NCBI RefSeq assembly: GCF_031951985.1
Contig: NZ_JAVLVU010000001.1
Span: forward strand, 1 to 64,000
Direction: 5' to 3'
Origin: Mucilaginibacter terrae
GTDB lineage: Bacteria > Bacteroidota > Bacteroidia > Sphingobacteriales > Sphingobacteriaceae
DNA length: 64,000 bases
Shown: positions 40,180 to 64,000 of the stretch, piece after piece
Layout: each line of letters starts with the position of its first letter
How positions within the stretch are numbered: position 1 is the first letter of the stretch
Program-made: the position numbers and the translations under genes
Notes under the pieces: model-generated
Told to the model about the DNA's origin: nothing
Database searches by the model: none
The model's input: the letters and a program-made list of their open reading frames with translations, nothing else

Positions 40180-42158
40180 CTACACACCAAAATCTTTACG
40201 GATGCCCAGCTTTTTCATTTTTGAATTAAGCGTAGTAGGCGGCAGGTTTAATAAATGAGCCGCACCGCCTTCGCCCCAAATTTTGCCATTACACTTTTTT
40301 AATGCCGCCATAATGTGTGCACGTTCTCCGTCACTCATTGTTGTGGCTACGGGTTCAGGAGGGGCAGCGGCCGGGTGTTGCTCTAATTGCGTAGGCAGTA
40401 CCATGCTGGTGATCATGTCGTCCCGGGTAAGCAAAACGTTCCTTTCAATCAGGTTTTCCAGCTCCCGGATATTTCCCGGCCAATGATATTGTTTCATGCT
40501 TTCTCCAGTACCTGTGGGGTAATTGCACGCACGGTTTTGCCTATCTTACGGGAATAAATGTTTAAAAAGTGATTTGCCAGATCTGCCAGATCTTCTTTCC
40601 TTTCCCTTAGTGGCGGCATTACTATTGGAAAAACGTTGATGCGGTAAAAAAGATCGAGCCTGAACCGTCCCTCCGCCACTTCTTTGGTCAGGTCGCGGTT
40701 GGTTGCGGCAATAATGCGCACATCTGTTTTGATGGTGGTGCGGCCACCTATACGTTCGATCTCTTTTTCCTGAAGAACCCTGAGAAGTTTGGATTGCGAT
40801 TCGAGTGGCAGTTCACCGATCTCATCTAAAAAAATAGTTCCGGTATGCGCTTGCTCAAACTTGCCTATCTTGCGCTCATGTGCGCCGGTGAAAGCCCCTT
40901 TTTCATGGCCGAAGAGTTCTGAATCGATCAGCGAGGTTGGCAATGCAGCACAATTGATCCTGATGAAAGGCTTATCTTTCCGGAGAGACAATGAGTGTAT
41001 ACGTTCAGCTATCTTTTCCTTTCCGGTACCGCTTTCGCCCAGTATAAGCACGGAAGTGTCTGCCCGAGCTACCTGCATTACCTGATCAAATACGGTTAGC
41101 AAAAGATGGCTATTGCCAATGATACCCTGAAAAGGGCTGACCCCATCTGCTCGTTGCGAATGATTTTTGATAGAATAATTCCTTGTTTCTGACACCAGCG
41201 GGCTATCCGGAAGGCGATAGACCTTTTCTACAAAACTGTTTAAAACAGGCTGGAACTTTTCACATAATAATAAATGATCGGCCTGGTAGGCATCTGACCG
41301 GCGACTGTAAAAATTAAAATAAACCAGCTTTTCGTCACCAGCCGCTATTGGCCAGCATAAATGAGAATGTAAATGGTATGTGTCAGTTATAATGCGTTTT
41401 AACGATGGCGTGCGCAGTAACTCATCCAATTCATTTCCATCATACCAGGTCGTCATATCACTGTTAGGATCATTTAGTTTTAAACCCGCCAATTCAAGCT
41501 GCTTGTGCCTGGTTATAACCATTAACTCATTAACACCAATAACCTGGTATTCATCAAATCCAACCCTGTTAAAACCCAGTTCATAAAAAGCATTCGTTTC
41601 TTCTTGCTTTAAACCGATGGATAAATACTCAAAGGGTAGGAGAGGCTGCAGTACTTTGGCAATTTGCAGCATTTTAAGTTCCCAACTTTGCCCCTTAGCA
41701 AGTATTTCAGCTGCTTTCTTTTGTAACTGCGCCGTTTTCGTTGAGCCGTTTTCCAACAGTTGACCGTGACGATAAACCGCAATATCGAGAGCGGTCAAAA
41801 CATCCTTATCACGAAAAGGCTTGATCACAAAGCCATATGGATTGGTCGTTTTTGCAGCATCGAGTACTTTTTGATTTGAATTGGCGGATATGTATATAAA
41901 TGGAATGTTCATTTCCGAAAGCCTATGTGCCAGATCGATTCCCGTAAGCTTGCCTTTCAGATAAATGTCTAACAGGACAAATTCCGGCTTAAATTCCGTA
42001 ATAAGTTCGAGTGCCTCCTTAACGCTGTCGGCAATACCGCAAACATAGTGCCCCGAAGATCTTAAAATATTAGCCAGCACATCGGCAATGATGAATTCGT
42101 CTTCGACAATAAGTATCCGTTTATTATCCACGTTCTTCGGTTTTACTAAAAAGTTCAA
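40180..42158 (-). pseudogene. Sigma-54-dependent response regulator, split by a frameshift
   Basis: Receiver domain first (RILIVEDEFIIADVLANIL, phospho-Asp in LLDIYLKGKLTGIDL, Lys in KPFRDKD), a GAF-like region, then an AAA+ domain with Walker A GESGTGKE, the sigma-54 contact loop GAFTGA and Walker B IFLDEIGEL. The frame breaks at 40494-40503; the second frame begins MKQYHWPGNIRELENLIERN, the sensor-2 part, followed by a Fis-type helix-turn-helix (NLPPTTLNSKMKKLGI). The TGA and ATG overlap. One missing base would rejoin LEKAMKQYHWPGN. The true start is uncertain: TTG at 42158 or GTG at 42131. A broken AAA+ domain could not activate sigma-54. Confidence 0.85.
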
Positions 42159-48493: not shown

Positions 48494-48651
48494 CGGGGGA
48501 GGGTAGAATGATCAATGCTACAGAATATCTCCAGAATTGGATTTTATAATTACTCAAATTTTCGGGCAAACTGCGCTGATAATATAATGCGATAAGGCCT
48601 TATACCTTAACGCAGTTGAGTTTAAATAGTGGTGGTTGAATAAAGAAATTG

Positions 48652-49083
48652 ATGATGAAAGTATTAATGCTCAGTATATTTTTAATAGCTCAGGTTGCAT
48701 GGTTGGGCAACTTTAATGAGGCGCAGCAGCAAGCTAAACAAACGCATAAAATGATACTCGTTAACTTTTCGGGGTCTGACTGGTGCGGTCCTTGCATCCG
48801 CCTGCGTAAAGAAATTCTGGAGACAACCGAATTTGATAGCTATGCACAAGATCACCTGGTATTGGTGCGGGCCGACTTTCCTCGCCAGAAAAAAAATCAA
48901 TTAAGCAAAGAGCAGGTATAAAGGAATGAGACCCTGGCAGACAAGTATAATGCCGAGGGGAAATTTCCATTCACACTGCTGCTTGATGAAGATGGTAAAG
49001 TTTTAAAAACCTGGGACGGCTATCCTAATGTTACTACCGCTCAGTTTGTAGCACAAATTAAAACGTTTGAGCATGCAAAGTAG
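48652..49083 (+). pseudogene. Thioredoxin-like protein with an in-frame stop
   Basis: The ATG at 48652 opens a protein with a hydrophobic export segment (MMKVLMLSIFLIAQVAW) and the active site FSGSDWCGPCIRL. A TAA at 48919-48921 stops it after 89 codons. Beyond the stop, in the same frame, the expected thioredoxin C-terminal half continues (NETLADKYNAEGKFPFTLLL with the cis-Pro, then KTWDGYPN) to a stop at 49081. A single base (a Lys or Gln codon to TAA) explains it. As written, the product lacks the second half of the fold and should be inactive. The cluster position argues that it was recently functional. Confidence 0.82.
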
Positions 49084-55121: not shown

Positions 55122-55788
55122 ATGGACGAATTTGACAAAATCCAGTTTACCGGTATTACCCCGTTTATTTCCCGGTACTTTACACATAAATTTATGGGTG
55201 TGGATTGTTTGTCATCTGCCGAACGAAACATCATACAAGGATCTGCCGAAAAACGCCGTATTGATTTTAGTACCGGGCGTTATTGCGCGCGCCAGGCGCT
55301 GGGCATGCTCATTAACAGTAAACCGGCCATTATGCAGGGCGAGGGGCGTGAGCCCTTATGGCCCAATGGCGTTGTAGGCTCTATCAGTCATTCGGGTAAA
55401 CTGGCAGGAGCGGTGGCAGCACTACAAAGCAATATAATGGCCATTGGTGTTGATATAGAGACAGTAGGAGAGGTAAAGCCAGAGATATGGGATTTGATTT
55501 TTAAATGATGATGAGCAAATACTTATACGCAGCAAACAGGGTGATACTGCGCTTTGGGCAACCTTACTTTTTTCTCTTAAAGAAGCGTTTTATAAGCTTC
55601 AATATCCAATTACCAGGCAGTTTGTTGATTTTAAAGATATTACCATTTCGCAAAACGAAAAACTATTAAAGTTCGAAAGCGCTAACCCCAATATAAATCT
55701 TTCACCTGTTTTACTTAGCCAGGTTGAAACGCACTGGATTAAGGCTCAAGATCAATTGATATCAATTTGTTACATTTCAGTGAAGTAA
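55122..55788 (+). pseudogene. Sfp-type 4'-phosphopantetheinyl transferase, single-base frameshift
   Basis: Transfers 4'-phosphopantetheine from CoA to the Ser of carrier domains. The first part (128 codons) includes the RYCARQALGML region, GVVGSISHSGKLAGAVAAL and the Mg-binding motif IGVDIET. A run of five T (55498-55502) then shifts the frame; with one T removed, the protein continues DLILNDDEQILI and contains LLFSLKEAFYK, the WxxKEA-type motif, ending at 55786-55788. Corrected length is about 221 residues. It lies 258 bases before the NRPS/PKS gene on the same strand, so it is the obvious activator of that enzyme's two carrier domains. Confidence 0.85.
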
Positions 55789-56046: not shown

Positions 56047-59000
56047 ATGATCAAGGCAGATACGGTACTCGATATTCTTTCATTTCAGGTTAGTACAACA
56101 CCCGGAAGTTTAGCATTAAAATTTGGTGAAACTGAGCTAAGCTACAAGCAGTTTGATGAATGTTCCAATCAGGTAGCCAACGCATTGATCTCGAAAGGTG
56201 TAACGCCGGGGATGCTTGTTCCTGTCTCCTTACATAATCCAGCCGATATGGTTATTGGCATTTGGGGTATCCTCAAAACCGGTGCTGCTTATGTACCTAT
56301 CGACCCAGATTTCCCGGCCGACCGCATTAGCTATATGCTTGCCGATACAGGTGCAGGTGTTGTTTTATCTGACAGTGCCTCAACAATATTCATTAAAGCT
56401 GCTCAAGATAAGGTTATTGTAACTGCTGATGATAATTGGGCTGCGATACAGGATTTTCCTGCTGCTTATCCGGCTGTAAAAGTAGCTGACGACCAGTTAG
56501 CCTATGTGATCTACACTTCTGGTTCTACAGGTCAACCTAAAGGGGTGTTAATAGAGCATAGGTCTCTTCTTAATTATCTTACTGGTTTAACTACCCGCCT
56601 GCCTTATCATACTTTAACCACGTTTGCGCTGGTAGGTACCCTTGCCGCCGATATAATTATCACCAACCTTTTTGGCTCCTTTATGGTAGGAGGCGCATTG
56701 CATCTTTTTAACAAAGATAATCTTAACGATATTGAATACATACACCGGTACTTTAATGAACACAGTATCGATTGTATCAAGATAACGCCCTCACATTGGC
56801 AGTCGCTTACCTTTAAAGGGAAAGAATTACTGCCCCGTAAGCTTTTGATGTTTGGCGGCGAAGCCTTGTATACATCGGTGATCAGGGAGGTAATGGCTGA
56901 TCCAGCACGGACCTGTATGCTGGTTAATCATTATGGACCTACCGAAACCACGGTGGGTCAGTTGTTGCACGTGGTGGACAAAAATGATCATTACGATCAT
57001 ATCATCCCTTTGGGTAAGCCATTTACCGGTGCCAGTGTTTACATATTTGATAAAACAGGAAATAAAGTTAAAAACGGACAAACCGGCGAGATATACATTG
57101 GCGGCAACTGCGTGGCTCGCGGGTATTTAAACCGGCTCGACTTAACCGAACAACGGTTTATAAAAGATAGCTTTAATACCGATAACAACGATCGCTTTTA
57201 CCGCACCGGTGACCTGGCGCGCCAATTACAAAACGGCGATATTGAATATGCAGGCCGCATAGACGACCAGGTTAAAATAAGGGGTTACCGTATTGAATTA
57301 GGTGAGATAGAAAGTGTATTGCAAAAAGCACCCGGCGTTAAACAAGGTGTGGTACTTGCAAAAGAGAACAGCAACGGCGATAAGCGGTTGGTAGCTTATG
57401 TGGTTAGTACAAATGGATATGATAAGTGGGCCATCGTCAACTTTTTAGAACAGAAATTACCCGCCTACATGGTGCCCCAAATACTGGTGTCACTTGCCGA
57501 ATTGCCTTTTTTGCGTAATGGCAAGGTAGATAAAAAAGCATTGCCTGATCCCGATGTATCAACACTACTTACCAATGCTTACCGGGCACCTGCAAATCAT
57601 ACAGAGACACTGATCGCTAACATCTGGAAAGATCTGTTGGCGGTAGCAAAGGTAGGCACCCATGATAACTTTTTTGAGTTGGGTGGCAATTCGTTGTTAG
57701 CGCTAAGATTCATTGCGTTATTAAGAGATAAGTATGGGTTGAAATTACCTGTGCCCAAGCTTTATCAATACCCACGTATAAAAGATATAGTAGCTTTTTT
57801 AGAAGGCAAGGCAGTTACAATACCCGTAAGGAGAAGTGTAAAACACGCTGATGCCGACATAGCCATCATTGGAATGGCTGGGCGGTTCCCGGGTGCCGAT
57901 GATATAAGCAGTTTTTGGGAGAATTTAAAGGCGGGTAAAGAAACTACGCGCTTCTTTGAAGACCACGAATTAGATGCCACGGTATCAGCGTCGCAAAAAA
58001 ACAACCCGGCTTATGTAAAGGCACGAGGTGTGCTTACTAATGTAAAAGGTTTTGATGCTGCGTTCTTTGGCATTACCCCCGTTTCGGCCCAATTGATGGA
58101 CCCGCAGCAGCGTATATTTTTAGAAATCGCATGGGAGGCATTAGAAAATTCGGGATATGCATCGCAACAAGCACTACGGGTGACTGGGGTATTTGCCGGG
58201 GTGCGCTCTAATACTTATTACGCTAACAATGTTGTAAGTAATACTGAATTGGTAGAAAAGGCAGGCACTTTCCAGGTAATGACCTTGAACGATAAAGACT
58301 ATGTAGCATCGCGCACCGCTTATGCACTCGATTTAAAAGGTCCGGCGGTAAATGTACAATCGGCTTGTTCAACTTCATTACTGGCCATAGCGCAAGCCGT
58401 GCAAAGCATTCGTAGCGGACAATGCGATATGGCTTTGGCTGGCGGGGCAACGATTAACGCCCCGGTAAACATTGGTCATTTATACGAAGAAGGCGCCATG
58501 CTGAGCAGTGATGGGCATTGCCGGCCCTTTGATGCCGATGCCACCGGTACCGTATTTAGTGATGGGGCAGGTGTAGTAGTATTAAAAAATAAAGAACAAG
58601 CGTTAAGGGATGGAGATACGATTTATGCCGTTATTAAAGGCATTGGCTTGAGTAACGATGGCGGCGGAAAGGGAAGCTTTACCGCACCAAGTGCCGAAGG
58701 CCAGGCGGCAGCTATTGCCATGGCCATAGACGATGCAGGGGTTAGTGCGGGTGATATAGCTTATGTTGAAGCGCACGGCACTGCTACACCCTTAGGAGAC
58801 CCCATCGAAATTTCAGGGCTCAAAATGGCTTTCGGTGAGCACGGAAAAAAACAGTATTGCGCTATTGGTTCAGTAAAAAGCAATTTCGGCCATTTGACTG
58901 CCGCATCGGGCGTGGCCGGTTTAATAAAGGCCTGTTTAGCACTTTATCACAAGCAAATACCGCCAACTATTAACTATTTTAAACCCAACCCGCATCTTGA

Positions 59001-62000
59001 TCTTGAAGACAGTCCGTTCTTTATAAATACCCAAACAATCAATTGGCCCAAAAACGCTAAGCACATTGCCGGTGTAAGTTCTTTTGGCGTTGGCGGCACC
59101 AATGTGCATGTGATATTAGAGAGCGGCAATGATGCACTTATAGCAGAAACCACGACATCCCGACCGGTGCAGCTCCTGTGCTGGAGTGCCAAGTCAACGC
59201 AAAGTTTGAATGCTTACGGTGACAGGTTAGCAAGCTATTTAAAAGGTGCTAATGATGCACACCTGGCCAATACAGCATATACGCTGCAAACTACACGAAA
59301 GAACTTCAACAACCGTCGCTTTATAATTGTACAGAATGCGAATGAATTTGTAGAAAAGCAAGATCATAGTTCGTTTAGCACCGGGTTAGTAAAAGATAGT
59401 GCCGGCAACATCGTGTTTATGTTCCCGGGGCAGGGAGCGCAGTTTTTAAATATGGGTAAAGGCTTGTACCAAACCGAACCCGTATTTAGAGCGGCAATGG
59501 ATGAATGTGCTGCCATATTGATGGACATATTGAAATTAGATCTGCTGGATATTATTTATCCGGAAGTTGAAGATGAAGCCGCTGAAAAACTGTTAATCCA
59601 AACGGCACATAGTCAGCCTGCTTTATTTTCCATAGGCTATGCGCTTGGCAAATTATACATGAGCTGGGGAATATTCCCGGCGGCTTTTATAGGCCATAGT
59701 GTGGGCGAATTTGTATCAGCCTATTTTGCCGGAGTATTCAGTTTGGCCGATGGCCTGAAACTGGTAACCAGCCGCGGACAAATAATGGGCTCCGTAGCGC
59801 CAGGCAGTATGCTATCGGTTCGCTGCAGCGTTGATGAAATACAGCCGTACTTGTCAGATGAAATTGCTTTGGCGGCAGTAAACAGTCCTAAACTATGTGT
59901 TATTGCCGGTGAGGTTGAAGCTGTGGTTAAACTAAATAACACGCTCACATCTAACGGCCTGCTTACCCGCCTGTTGCCAACAAGCCACGCTTTCCACTCA
60001 CATATGATGGATGCCGTTGTACCATCTTTTGAAGAGGTGGTAAAAACAATTGAGCTTAGTTCACCACTCATACCAGTAGCCTCTACCGTTACCGGTGAAT
60101 TTCTTACAGCCGATGAGGCAATATCACCAAACTATTGGGCTTCACACCTGCGCGCAACCGTACAGTATAGCAAAGCGGTGCAGCGCTTATTGGATGATGA
60201 GTATACGTTATTCCTCGAACTCGGACCAGGCAGTTCATCCTCAACGCTAACACGTCAGCAAGCAGCAGGAAAGGTGGAGGTAATCGCCATTTCAACACTC
60301 GAAAAAGCAGATGAAGAGCAATCGTGCAAGTTGGCCATAAATGCCTTGGGGCAACTTTGGTTACATGGTGCAGATGTTGATTGGGCTTCTTTTTACAAGA
60401 ACGAAACCCGCCTGAAGCTAACCGATGTGCCTACTTACGCTTTTAATAAACAAGATTATTGGGTAGAACCGGTGAGGTTGAATACAACTTTGACGAATAT
60501 TAACACAGCAGTACAACCCACTTATACAGAAAAACAAAGCAATACTACGCCGGTAATGAGAAAGCAGGAACTGATAACACGGCTTAAACTAACATTGGAG
60601 AATGCATCGGGCATTGAGATGCATGCCGCCACGCCAGAAATGAGCTTTATTGAACTGGGACTGGATTCGCTTATTCTCACCCAAGTGGCGATGATTATCA
60701 AAAAAGAGTTTGCGTTGCCGGTTACCTTCAGGCAGTTGAATGAAGAGTTGGGTACCTTGGATTTGCTTGCAGCTTATTTGGATGCTCATATGCCGGTAAA
60801 TGCCTATCCACAACAGGCAGCTATGCATAATAGTTCATCGCAGGCTTCGGCAGTAAATGCGCTAACCAGTAATGGAGATGCCCTTACCATCATCAGCCAG
60901 CAGTTACAGCAATTGGCTGCGCAGGTAGCACAGTTACAGGGGCAACCATATCAGGCTGCTACGCCCAGGCATTATGCAAATAATACTACTGTATTGTTGC
61001 CATCGGCGCAGTCACCAACTGCACAGCCCGAACTCACCGCAGAAGAAGCAGTTGAGATCAAAAAGCCATTTGGTGCCATAGCCCGCATCGAAAAACGGTC
61101 CGAAGCTTTAAATGAAGATCAACAGCAATACCTGGCTGATCTGGTCAAACGCTATAACGAAAAAACCAAGTCGAGCAAAGCCTATACCCAGCAGCACCGC
61201 GCCCGCATGGCCGATCCGCGGGTGGTATCGGGCTTTAAGCCGGCCACTAAAGAGTTGGTTTACTCCGTGGTCATTAAAAGATCGAAAGGCAGCCGCTTAT
61301 GGGATTTGGACGGCAACGAATACATAGATGCCCTGAACGGTTTTGGTTCGAGTATGTTGGGCTACCAGCCCGATGTGGTCAAGAATGCATTACTCGAGCA
61401 AGTTGAACTTGGTTATGAGATAGGTCCGCAGCATGAATTGGCAGGCGAGGTATGTGACTTGGTTTGCGAATTTACAGGCTTTGACCGCGCCGGGTTGTGC
61501 AACACCGGGTCAGAAGCCGTGGTTGGCGCTATGCGCATAGCGCGTACGGTAACGGGCAGGTCTGTTATTGTAGCCTTTGCTGGCTCATATCACGGTATTA
61601 ATGATGAAGTTATTGTGCGGGGCAGCAAAAAGCTAAAAACTTATCCCGCAGCGCCGGGTATTATGCCCGAGGCCGTGCAAAATATGCTTATTCTGGATTA
61701 TGGTACCGATGAGGCATTAAAAATAATTGAAGAACGTTCGCATGAAATTGCCGCAGTGTTGGTAGAGCCTGTGCAAAGCAGGCGTGCCGATTTTCAGCCT
61801 GTCGATTTCCTGAGAAAGCTCCGCAAGCTTACAGAAGATACCGAAACCATCCTGATATTTGATGAGGTTATCTCAGGTTTCAGGTTTCATCCGGCAGGAG
61901 TGCAGGGTATGTTCGGTATTAAAGCCGATATAGGCACATATGGCAAGGTAGCAGGTGGCGGCCTTTCTATAGGCATAATTGCTGGTCATAAACGATTTTT

Positions 62001-62604
62001 GGATGCGCTGGACGGCGGTTTTTGGCAATACGGCGATGACTCTATACCCGAAGTGGGCGTTACCTATTTTGCCGGTACGTTTGTAAGACATCCGCTGGCC
62101 TTGGCCACTACCAAGGCATCGCTCAATTATATGAAAGCAATGGGGCCGCAGCTACAAGAAAACCTCAATGCCAATACACGCTACCTGGCCGACAGCATAA
62201 ACACCATTTGCCAAAGGTTAAAGGTGCCTATATTCATCGCTCAATTTGGCTCGCTTTGGCGCATCCGTTTCCTGGCCGAATACCCATACCAGGAATTGTT
62301 TTTTACCCTAATGCGCTACAAAGGTATTCACATACTCGAGGGCTTTCCTTGTTATATGACCACCGCCCACAGCAAAGCCGATATAGAGAAGATCATCAGC
62401 TGTTTTGAAGAAAGCCTTACAGAATTGATCGGCTATAATTTTATTCCTTCATACGATCATCCGGCACCTGATAAAATTAAAGTATTGAACCAGCCACCTA
62501 TACCCGGTGCAAGGCTTGGTAAAGACAAAGATGGAAACCCGGCCTGGTTCACCATCGATGAAGCAAACCCCGGTAAATACTTAATGATAAATCAATCTCA
62601 CTAA
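56047..62604 (+). CDS. Hybrid NRPS/PKS/aminotransferase megasynthase (A-T-KS-AT-T-AMT)
   Basis: Protein of 2185 residues. Domains in order: adenylation (residues 1-505, YTSGSTGQPKG near 155, NHYGPTETT near 294), carrier T1 (Ser549 in FFELGGNSLL), ketosynthase (600-1030, Cys774 in SACSTS, His in EAHGTATPLGD and KSNFGHLTA), acyltransferase (1120-1420, Ser1218 in GHSVGEF, HAFH at 1314-1317, indicating malonyl-CoA), carrier T2 (Ser1541 in ELGLDSL), a Gln-rich linker, and a class III PLP aminotransferase (1690-2150, Lys1967 in YGKVAGGG). There is no N-terminal condensation domain, so it initiates a chain. No ketoreductase is present. The last two domains resemble the KS-AT-ACP-AMT arrangement of mycosubtilin/iturin synthase. 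The condensation protein follows after five bases. Confidence 0.95.
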   Translation: MIKADTVLDILSFQVSTTPGSLALKFGETELSYKQFDECSNQVANALISKGVTPGMLVPVSLHNPADMVIGIWGILKTGAAYVPIDPDFPADRISYMLADTGAGVVLSDSASTIFIKAAQDKVIVTADDNWAAIQDFPAAYPAVKVADDQLAYVIYTSGSTGQPKGVLIEHRSLLNYLTGLTTRLPYHTLTTFALVGTLAADIIITNLFGSFMVGGALHLFNKDNLNDIEYIHRYFNEHSIDCIKITPSHWQSLTFKGKELLPRKLLMFGGEALYTSVIREVMADPARTCMLVNHYGPTETTVGQLLHVVDKNDHYDHIIPLGKPFTGASVYIFDKTGNKVKNGQTGEIYIGGNCVARGYLNRLDLTEQRFIKDSFNTDNNDRFYRTGDLARQLQNGDIEYAGRIDDQVKIRGYRIELGEIESVLQKAPGVKQGVVLAKENSNGDKRLVAYVVSTNGYDKWAIVNFLEQKLPAYMVPQILVSLAELPFLRNGKVDKKALPDPDVSTLLTNAYRAPANHTETLIANIWKDLLAVAKVGTHDNFFELGGNSLLALRFIALLRDKYGLKLPVPKLYQYPRIKDIVAFLEGKAVTIPVRRSVKHADADIAIIGMAGRFPGADDISSFWENLKAGKETTRFFEDHELDATVSASQKNNPAYVKARGVLTNVKGFDAAFFGITPVSAQLMDPQQRIFLEIAWEALENSGYASQQALRVTGVFAGVRSNTYYANNVVSNTELVEKAGTFQVMTLNDKDYVASRTAYALDLKGPAVNVQSACSTSLLAIAQAVQSIRSGQCDMALAGGATINAPVNIGHLYEEGAMLSSDGHCRPFDADATGTVFSDGAGVVVLKNKEQALRDGDTIYAVIKGIGLSNDGGGKGSFTAPSAEGQAAAIAMAIDDAGVSAGDIAYVEAHGTATPLGDPIEISGLKMAFGEHGKKQYCAIGSVKSNFGHLTAASGVAGLIKACLALYHKQIPPTINYFKPNPHLDLEDSPFFINTQTINWPKNAKHIAGVSSFGVGGTNVHVILESGNDALIAETTTSRPVQLLCWSAKSTQSLNAYGDRLASYLKGANDAHLANTAYTLQTTRKNFNNRRFIIVQNANEFVEKQDHSSFSTGLVKDSAGNIVFMFPGQGAQFLNMGKGLYQTEPVFRAAMDECAAILMDILKLDLLDIIYPEVEDEAAEKLLIQTAHSQPALFSIGYALGKLYMSWGIFPAAFIGHSVGEFVSAYFAGVFSLADGLKLVTSRGQIMGSVAPGSMLSVRCSVDEIQPYLSDEIALAAVNSPKLCVIAGEVEAVVKLNNTLTSNGLLTRLLPTSHAFHSHMMDAVVPSFEEVVKTIELSSPLIPVASTVTGEFLTADEAISPNYWASHLRATVQYSKAVQRLLDDEYTLFLELGPGSSSSTLTRQQAAGKVEVIAISTLEKADEEQSCKLAINALGQLWLHGADVDWASFYKNETRLKLTDVPTYAFNKQDYWVEPVRLNTTLTNINTAVQPTYTEKQSNTTPVMRKQELITRLKLTLENASGIEMHAATPEMSFIELGLDSLILTQVAMIIKKEFALPVTFRQLNEELGTLDLLAAYLDAHMPVNAYPQQAAMHNSSSQASAVNALTSNGDALTIISQQLQQLAAQVAQLQGQPYQAATPRHYANNTTVLLPSAQSPTAQPELTAEEAVEIKKPFGAIARIEKRSEALNEDQQQYLADLVKRYNEKTKSSKAYTQQHRARMADPRVVSGFKPATKELVYSVVIKRSKGSRLWDLDGNEYIDALNGFGSSMLGYQPDVVKNALLEQVELGYEIGPQHELAGEVCDLVCEFTGFDRAGLCNTGSEAVVGAMRIARTVTGRSVIVAFAGSYHGINDEVIVRGSKKLKTYPAAPGIMPEAVQNMLILDYGTDEALKIIEERSHEIAAVLVEPVQSRRADFQPVDFLRKLRKLTEDTETILIFDEVISGFRFHPAGVQGMFGIKADIGTYGKVAGGGLSIGIIAGHKRFLDALDGGFWQYGDDSIPEVGVTYFAGTFVRHPLALATTKASLNYMKAMGPQLQENLNANTRYLADSINTICQRLKVPIFIAQFGSLWRIRFLAEYPYQELFFTLMRYKGIHILEGFPCYMTTAHSKADIEKIISCFEESLTELIGYNFIPSYDHPAPDKIKVLNQPPIPGARLGKDKDGNPAWFTIDEANPGKYLMINQSH

Positions 62605-62609
62605 TTTTA

Positions 62610-64000
62610 ATGCACACTTTTACGCCTGTTGATTTCGATCCTTTTGCTGATGAACAAGAGATAGAGAAAATTATTTATACCAATGAGCCGCAAAAAGAAA
62701 TGTGGCTTTCCTGTATGATCGGTGGCCAGGAGGCTAATTTATCCTATAACGAATCGGTCTCTTTAGAATTGAAGGGTAATCTTAATTTTAATGCGTTTGA
62801 GCAAGCAGTACAAAGCTTGGTTCAGCGGCATGAGGCTTTGCGATCTACCGTTAGTCCTAATGGCGAAACACTTATCATATACAAAAACTTCCCGCTAAAT
62901 CTATTACTGACAGATATTTCCAACATTTCCGAGATTGAGCAAAATATCGAAATAGAATCGTTTTTACGCCGCGAGATCGGCATACCGCTCGACTTGCATA
63001 AAGGGGCCGCTTTTTCGTGCATTTGTTCATGAAATCTCTGAGAAAAAATTGCTTTTTACCATCATTAAACATCATATCATTGGTGATGGCTGGTCTACCG
63101 GGGTAATGCTCGAAGACCTGGCGAAATTTTACAATGCTTATAACCAAAACCACAGTGCTTATTTAGCTACACCCACTCAACTCAGTGATTATGCCTCATG
63201 GCAAGCAGCTTTTAAACAAAGTGCAGTGTACCATGAAACAGTAGCTTTTTGGCTTAACGAGTACAAAAATGGCGCACCGGTACTTAATCTACCTACTGAT
63301 AGGCCCCGCCAACCAACAAGGACTTATAAAGGGCACCGCATCGACGTGCCATTATCGCCTAATTTAGCCTCGAAAGTTAAAGCTATGGGAGCTAAGGCCG
63401 GTGCGAGTTTGGTGACCACCTTGCTTACGGCATTCGAGATACTGTTATACCAAAAAACGCAGCAAACTGATGTTGTAGTAGGGCTTCCCGCTGCTGGGCA
63501 GGCAGCATCAGGTCTTACGGGCGTAGTGGGACATTGTGTAAACCTGTTACCGCTGCTAAGTCATATAGCACCCGCTTCATCGTTTATCGACTATTTAAAG
63601 AAGCGTAAAAAAGAGGTATTAGACGCCTATGATCATCAAAACATCACCTTTGGCGAACTGATTCGTAAACTTTACATCCCCCGCGATGCCTCGCGTATAC
63701 CGTTGGTGCCGGTTATTTTTAATATTGATATGGGTATGGATAACGCAGTAGCGTTTGATGGGCTTGAGCTTAAGTTGATCAGTAACCCGCGATCATACGA
63801 GAATTTTGAACTGTACCTGAACGTAACCCGTTCTAAAGAGGACATAGTTTTGGAGTGGTCCTACAATACCGATATTTTTGATGCCCAAACCATTGAAGGC
63901 TATAATAGTAGTTATGTTGATATACTACAGGCAATGGCAGATACTCCGGATGCAAATATTGCACAAATTGCCGGAGTACAGCAAGAACCGGTTAACTTAA
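62610..64000 (+). pseudogene. NRPS condensation-domain protein, 5' part, single-base frameshift, runs off the window
   Basis: Starts MHTFTPVDFDPFADEQEIEK and then the condensation domain. C1-C2 motifs (EMWLSCMIG, NESVSLEL, RHEALRSTV) are in the first frame. A run of four G (63003-63006) shifts the frame after PLDLHKG; with one G removed it reads HKGPLFRAFVHE and continues with HHIIGDGW, the catalytic HHxxxDG motif, then NLPTDRPRQP, TDVVVGLPAAG and VGHCVNLLPL. This second frame is open to base 64000. As written, translation would stop at 63032. The protein should accept the product of the megasynthase. Its downstream modules lie outside the window. Confidence 0.88.

Follow-up and report, generated by a model that had tools for sequence, protein, structure and literature searches.

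A candidate two-protein assembly line for a beta,gamma-diamino acid in Mucilaginibacter terrae and its relatives in Bacteroidota

Organization of the locus

We analyzed the first 64,000 nucleotides (positions 1-64,000, hereafter the window) of contig NZ_JAVLVU010000001.1 of Mucilaginibacter terrae (assembly GCF_031951985.1), whose genome is a single contig of 5,485,925 bases that begins with the window. Near the end of the window lies the gene for a synthase, here called protein 1, in which an adenylation domain (A, the loader), a carrier domain (T), a ketosynthase (KS), an acyltransferase (AT), a second carrier domain and an aminotransferase domain (AMT) follow one another in a single chain.

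56047..62604, plus strand: A-T-KS-AT-T-AMT synthase (protein 1), one intact open frame of 2185 amino acids
56086..57525, plus strand: adenylation domain, code DITKMGHVG plus the Lys of NGKVD, Asp-like (Pfam, motifs, code alignment)
57613..57801, plus strand: first carrier domain, GGNS (Pfam PP-binding, motif)
57856..59328, plus strand: ketosynthase, Cys in QSACSTS, HGTAT, NFGH (Pfam, motifs)
59413..60237, plus strand: acyltransferase, GHSVG and HAFH, malonyl type (Pfam, motifs)
60574..60816, plus strand: second carrier domain, LGLDSL, approximate bounds (motif; PP-binding matched twice)
61117..62604, plus strand: class III aminotransferase domain, MycA-like, Lys in TYGK (Pfam, sequence, fold)
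61606..61608, plus strand: codon of Glu1854 (Glu in 76 of 77 family rows)

An earlier note on this DNA had described this domain string in one chain with its active-site residues in place, a malonyl-type AT, no reductive domain, a MycA-like AMT and an amino-acid loader. That description has held throughout, while two further suggestions, that the synthase opens a long chain and that the combination is unrecorded, are not supported. In the loader half, Pfam places the AMP-binding domain at residues 14-361, its C-terminal domain at 420-493 and PP-binding at 523-585; the remainder comprises the ketoacyl synthase with its extension (604-1094), the acyl transferase (1123-1397) and the class III aminotransferase (1739-2099). 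PP-binding matches the protein twice, and the second carrier was located by LGLDSL at residue 1537. The other motifs begin at residues 491 (NGKVD), 546 (GGNS), 910 (HGTAT), 946 (NFGH), 1216 (GHSVG), 1314 (HAFH, which we take as the mark of a malonyl-type AT) and 1964 (TYGK). The five main Pfam domains fall in one frame with E values of 2e-24 to 3e-73, which excludes a chance origin of the string.

None of the 11 Pfam families that match protein 1 is a ketoreductase (KR), dehydratase or enoylreductase model. The same picture was obtained from an alignment of 77 KS-to-AMT sequences, the window counted in, where the distance from LWLHGADVDW (residue 1437 in the window, just past the AT) to the LGLDSL of the second carrier is 84-127 residues in all rows, leaving no room for a reductive loop. 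The KS Cys, both His and Lys, the AT Ser, the AT HAFH and the Ser of the second carrier are identical in 77/77 rows; the Lys of the AMT that binds pyridoxal phosphate (PLP) and its partner Asp are kept in 76, with one gap, and both are present in the window.

Directly downstream is a second synthetase gene, and upstream a gene for a phosphopantetheinyl transferase (PPTase); each is spread over two frames.

62610..63032, plus strand: start of the second synthetase gene, N-terminal part of a condensation (C) domain (Condensation 3-119 of 456, E 9e-16)
63049..64000 and beyond the window, plus strand: remainder of the second gene in another frame, with the rest of C (HHIIGDG), then A (DILQLGMVW, Gly-like), T and thioesterase (TE) (L003:8049-11621)
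55122..55508, plus strand: N-terminal part of the PPTase gene (4PPT_N, PF17837; Pfam E 8.6e-23), frame ending at 55508
55498..55788, plus strand: apparent C-terminal part of the PPTase in another frame (three-frame translation, by eye), with FSLKEAFYK, which we take to be a PPTase motif

Following the sequence past position 64,000, as the earlier note had advised, showed that the C-A-T-TE gene completes the line and ends at L003:11621, which is genome position 66,621. All four of its domains were found, but C is split: in the genome search the Condensation model matches with its positions 3-119 at 62667-63014 and with 115-447, in a different frame, at 63001-63978. Over the whole 5.49 Mb genome PF00668 has no match besides this split domain. 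A long multimodular cluster was rejected on these grounds, since one further module with a TE is all that follows; the predicted assembly line is one of two modules on two proteins.

Relatives and phylogeny

Relatives were collected in one scan of genome contigs, and the domain strings of the best 80 of 250 confirmed loci (cited by L numbers) were read with the window's own domains as queries. The full A-T-KS-AT-T-AMT string was found in 73/80, a figure that is partly so by construction, because loci were picked by similarity. The other seven comprise three cut at a contig start (L049, L063, L080), two in which no A was found (L053, L083), one in which no T was found (L071) and one with an extra T (L081). 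Of the 73 full-string loci, 62 have a C domain within 700 bases past the AMT, and 59 have a TE downstream. Six of the 11 loci that have no following C come to a contig end less than 1.5 kb from the AMT (L010, L036, L040, L056, L073, L078), and five are not near one (L027, L028, L037, L045, L064). With its full string and a loader with Asp at code position 235, protein 1 fits the Bacteroidota family defined here, A-T-KS-AT-T-AMT with an adjacent C-A-T-TE gene.

An even draw of 392 Bacteroidota genomes gave 14, the window's included, with a match in one alignment running from residue 23 or earlier to 2134 or later, so that at least 14/392 carry the family; 21/392 match in all at E <= 1e-290. In a genus-weighted set 29/60 genomes match at E <= 1e-100, many of these matches being partial. 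Full-length copies in congeners are 50-53% identical to the window, and that of congener genome G027 (L095) is 100% identical to that of Mucilaginibacter oryzae (L079). Best segments reach up to 65% in Chitinophagaceae, 60-61% in four Pedobacter loci and 55% in a fifth (L065).

In a quick, midpoint-rooted FastTree tree of the 77 rows, the window is one of 14 rows that form a clade (support 100); its companions there are Pedobacter, Chitinophagaceae/Flavipsychrobacter and two unplaced Bacteroidetes metagenome-assembled genomes (MAGs), and five Mucilaginibacter loci (L030, L040, L051, L078, L079) lie elsewhere in the tree. Lateral transfer of the cluster is a simpler reading of this placement than an old paralogue with losses.

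Beyond Bacteroidota, the best 80 include three loci of Pseudomonadota and one of Verrucomicrobiota; these distant versions (L071, L075, L081, L083) come from Amylibacter, another member of the Rhodobacterales, a gammaproteobacterial MAG and a Verrucomicrobiaceae genome. The AMT is fused with C-A-T-TE in one protein in L071, L075 and L083, and likewise in three Bacteroidota loci, L052, L072 and L077. Flavobacterium micromati (L068) and Parapedobacter soli (L064) each carry two A-T-KS-AT-T cores with differing loader codes, and one core copy in L068 has no AMT on its open reading frame (ORF).

Specificity codes

Codes were read by aligning A domains to the two of the window, with code positions set by core motifs. 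The window's loader gave DITKMGHVG and its second A domain DILQLGMVW. The loader also scores 395.5 bits against TIGR01733, the amino-acid A domain family, whose cut-off is 317.4. Among published codes (PMC12283262), DLTKVGHVGK stands for Asp as well as Asn, Asp being favoured by the majority of that group, and Gly has DILQLGMIWK; DFWNIGMVHK is among the Thr codes, Val236 with Gln239 is frequent in Pro codes, and Asp235 is conserved in domains that activate alpha-amino acids. Asp235 heads every loader code read (76/76), as the earlier note's amino-acid loader would have it, and it disfavours a fatty-acid starter, which we set aside. The window loader most likely activates L-aspartate.

Across the family, 33/76 loaders have the Pro-like pair Val236/Gln239, and the commonest single code is DVQFMAQVV (16/76). 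Other codes resemble those for Asp, Asn, Thr, Ser, Gly and Val, and many have no assignment. The Ser-like code DVWHLSLID is near the published DVWHLSLVDK (PMC12283262). In the window clade 10/13 sister loaders read xTKxGHxG, and one locus outside it (L055) also has an Asp-like code. The second gene carries the Gly-like code DILQLGMIW in 12/12 sister loci where it was readable.

The aminotransferase domain

The AMT domain is closest to that of mycosubtilin synthase MycA. Among sequences of solved structures, the MycA AMT (6kfm) matches at E 4e-119, with 196/441 aligned positions identical (44%), and the best glutamate-1-semialdehyde (GSA) aminomutase (3bs8) at 1.3e-45; the GSA aminomutase family cut-offs are missed (TIGR00713, 226.6 bits vs 527.3; PRK00062, 241.8 vs 398). 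In Foldseek searches with an AlphaFold2 model of the domain (49 sequences, mean pLDDT 82.3, pTM 0.81), 6kfm came first (E 3.4e-45, TM 0.84 by query), and the next entry other than MycA was PctV (E 3.2e-32). Superposed on 6kfm, the model gave Z 46.0 and a root-mean-square deviation of 2.3 over 437 aligned residues, against Z 42.0 and below for GSA aminomutases. The closest PDB entries are thus those of MycA (6kfm, 6kfu); sequence separates the two kinships well and fold separates them little.

One conserved residue of the family AMTs differs in MycA. Glu1854 is Glu in all of the 77 rows except L083, which has Pro and in which no A domain was found, and the same position is Gly in MycA. Among AMTs outside the family, which are few and mutually related, the position is Glu in L141 and L143, both with upstream A and T domains, and Gly, Gly, Gly, Pro and Ile in L115, L116, L139, L140 and L142, where no close upstream A was seen or only query matches of 21-25%; L138, whose loader is ambiguous, has Gln, and L145 repeats the AMT of L115. 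Glu1854, a candidate marker of the family AMTs whose signal was noticed post hoc, may recognise the gamma-ammonium group. It falls in a low-confidence stretch of the model (residues 161-186), a region that may correspond to the gating loop of GSA aminomutases. Glu1791 was also considered as a marker (76 Glu and one Asp in 77 rows) and was dropped, since outside the family L138 has Glu, as does L139 with no loader close by, and L141, with a loader, has Gly.

Proposed assembly line

The genes, their domains, the catalytic residues and the conservation of these are observed; from them we infer the substrates, the order of steps, the product and the mode of release. The A domain of protein 1 would load an alpha-amino acid, most likely L-aspartate, onto the first carrier, and the KS would join it with malonate supplied by the AT to give a 4-amino-3-oxo-hexanedioyl (4-amino-3-oxoadipoyl) thioester on the second carrier. 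The MycA-type AMT would then turn the 3-keto group into an amine at the expense of an external amino donor. The vicinal diamine, a 3,4-diaminoadipoyl thioester, is expected because an amino-acid loader is combined with an AMT and no reduction lies between them. The C-A-T-TE protein would condense the diaminoadipoyl group with glycine, and the TE would release either the free acid, C8H15N3O5 (calculated mass 233.10), or, minus water, a lactam or ring (215.09). A beta,gamma-diamino thioester is the straightforward reading of protein 1, and the chemistry of the earlier note appears sound as an inference. We consider the full two-protein route somewhat more probable than not; among the points in its favour, C follows the AMT in most full-string loci (62/73) and all 12 readable sister second genes have a Gly-like code.

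The order KS-AT-T-AMT in a single chain is that of MycA, and iturin ItuA has a like AMT module. MycA starts from a fatty acid. Protein 1 has no fatty-acyl starter with an acyl ligase; it starts with an amino-acid A domain with Asp235, so that the beta-amine would adjoin a gamma-amine. The MycA AMT stands at the interface of polyketide synthase and peptide synthetase and acts on a beta-keto thioester (PMC3870968). The window line also differs from another group of known modules in the fate of the keto group. Modules of the statine and detoxinine types combine an aminoacyl group, malonate and a KR, so that the keto group is reduced there, whereas in the window line, with no KR, it would be aminated. 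GSA 2,1-aminomutase shares superfamily and fold with the window AMT, although it is the weaker match in sequence and slightly the weaker one in fold; it acts on a free metabolite by intramolecular transfer through a vicinal diamine intermediate.

The domain string itself is on record. In a 2013 survey of PLP domains (PMC3870968, Table 2), Pedobacter heparinus C6XWU5 is listed as A-CP-KS-AT-CP-PLP1, with an AMT assigned to the GSA type by B6db and a predicted product string Nrp-Mal-Gly-Pk; the entry gives a predicted monomer string and no known product, and its likeness to the window lies in the listed string. Dozens of Bacteroidota genomes carry the string as well, and the novelty suggested in the earlier note is weakened by both facts. 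A search of the open-licence literature found no product described for the family. New here are the size of the family, the completeness of the line in two genes, the exchange of loaders over a constant core, and a prediction of Asp and Gly that comes with masses.

Alternative readings

The loader could instead take asparagine or another residue, and the diamino acid would change accordingly. This is improbable, though the published code DLTKVGHVGK covers Asp and Asn alike (PMC12283262) and the window deviates from it at I236 and M299. The same source has the majority of the code group favouring Asp. The window has His322, against the Glu322 of codes of the DLTKxGEVGK type. These are Asn-type codes; DLTKIGEVGK is given for a related residue in PMC12283262. 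An early exit of the same diamino thioester carries about the same low weight in our view: the gamma-amine would attack the thioester on the second carrier, or the beta-amine the Asp side-chain carboxylate, giving a 4-amino-pyrrolidinone or a bis-lactam, and the second module would act on little or nothing, or the TE would make a ring. Such a five-membered closure is chemically favourable, and with no N-acylating domain ahead of A in protein 1 the gamma-amine would be free; against it, C adjoins the AMT in 62/73 full-string loci and TE lies downstream in 59/73, and their retention in most loci suggests that the chain is normally, in all probability, handed to a second amino acid. Least credible by a wide margin is an AMT that works as an intramolecular aminomutase, moving the C4 amine to C3 through a 3,4-diamino intermediate to leave a 3-amino-4-oxo acid. 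The AMT belongs to the GSA aminomutase superfamily, an alpha-aminoketone is the type of substrate that GSA aminomutase handles, and the P. heparinus AMT is grouped with GSA aminomutases in the 2013 survey (PMC3870968), but the window domain is clearly nearer to the MycA transaminase in sequence and slightly nearer in fold. In the 33/76 Pro-like loaders, moreover, the gamma-nitrogen would be a ring secondary amine, for which a transposition of this kind would not be possible.

Several points weigh against the Asp-malonate-Gly line. The second gene is split near 63,000-63,050 and the PPTase near 55,500; three of the 13 sister loaders differ from the Asp-like pattern (DFTKMALVA twice, DAEHIAKIS once); and DILQ codes occur in only 38/82 A domains that follow a C domain (all loci, the window's included), which makes Gly a common second residue and not the rule, and often not the residue outside the clade. 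In each of the 12 sister second genes the second A domain contains an insert of about 400-450 residues that the window does not have; it is visible as a spacing in ten loci (L005-L009, L013, L014, L020, L050, L065), and in L011 and L069 it breaks the A match. Pfam scans of two sisters, L005 and L011, identified the insert as a methyltransferase in both. On chemical grounds, a free gamma-amine on the thioester may also cyclize to a 4-amino-pyrrolidinone before the C domain can use the chain.

The frame breaks bear on a further alternative, namely that the cluster was recently inactivated in this strain, with protein 1 intact over 2185 codons, the second protein and the PPTase broken and nothing made. 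We regard this as a real possibility, if the less probable one. The second gene is one open frame in all 12 sister loci, broken second genes occurring also in a few loci outside that set (for example L049), and the two splits, within about 11 kb, exceed the rate suggested by SusC-type genes elsewhere in the genome, where 5 of the 56 scored, from 134 candidates, lack a full-length single frame, some perhaps being naturally short. Breaks are nevertheless found elsewhere in the assembly, so they are not special to the cluster and may be assembly errors. A response-regulator/sigma-54 activator (40180-42158, minus strand) is likewise in two frames near 40495, its AAA lid domain divided between ORFs, and a thioredoxin-like gene (by eye; 48649-49080, plus strand) has an in-frame stop at about 48,920 past which the fitting reading continues. 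Intact genes include rpoC, with a frame of 1432 amino acids, and three long matches to aminoacyl-tRNA synthetases, whose frames have 930, 990 and 1136 amino acids. The line may be dead in this strain, or the assembly may be wrong; with the second gene split, the proposed Asp-malonate-Gly line may not run in this genome unless the split is a sequencing error.

Neighbouring genes

Upstream of the synthase lie the split PPTase and a hybrid histidine kinase; downstream of the C-A-T-TE gene are genes named by eye from their translations as extracytoplasmic function (ECF) sigma-like, FecR-like and SusC/SusD-like, which look unrelated to the cluster. A PPTase is the first downstream neighbour in 39/62 loci scanned, which is common and not universal, and the window, with its PPTase upstream and an ECF sigma-like gene downstream, departs from this layout. 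No KR that might act in trans was seen among the translated genes around the cluster, in a reading by eye and not a dedicated search. KR was likewise absent from the Pfam hits of ten conserved neighbour proteins of the relatives, a scan that did not extend to other neighbour families or the rest of the genome. One of the ten matched nothing; the hits of the others were to PPTase, glycosyltransferases, a flippase-type protein, an ABC transporter, a cupin, a DegT aminotransferase and a methyltransferase.

First upstream neighbours, scanned in 65 loci, include GT2 (6/65), Polysacc_synt (5/65) and Cupin_8 (7/65). A common neighbour family is present in L012, L016, L018, L019, L020, L022, L039, L049, L052 and L081, its member in L012 being of the Cupin_8/JmjC type, possibly a hydroxylase that tailors the product. 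In eight Pedobacter loci (L007, L013, L014, L020, L023, L038, L048, L054) the operon abuts a conserved downstream block of glycosyltransferases, a DegT aminotransferase and a WxcM-like protein (by eye), with loader types that differ among the loci. This block would reflect either a shared chromosomal position or a functional link to polysaccharide. A tie to polysaccharide loci was not used, because Pedobacter synteny may explain much of the neighbour signal; no such block was seen beside the window cluster.

Conclusions

Taken as a whole, the comparison suggests a Bacteroidota-wide family, with four loci elsewhere, that would make beta,gamma-diamino acids with interchangeable side chains and, from them, small dipeptide-like metabolites by way of AMTs of the Glu1854 type. 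We put this forward tentatively, at slightly less than even chances. Held equally tentatively, the KS-AT-T-AMT core would be fixed while the loader swaps among Pro-, Asp-, Asn-, Thr-, Ser-, Gly- and Val-like codes; such variety on a fixed core makes the family look like a chassis for beta,gamma-diamino acids. Just short of an even bet, too, is that glycine often receives the diamino acid, and that the glycine module of some lines includes a methyltransferase. If these readings are true, two genes and a PPTase would form a genetically simple route to vicinal diamino acids, a class of building blocks in demand, and the family would test whether KS and AMT tolerate a free alpha-aminoacyl chain that has no N-protection. 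The products of the family would be predictable from one specificity code, and many environmental bacteria would gain a predicted class of metabolites that could be sought by exact mass.

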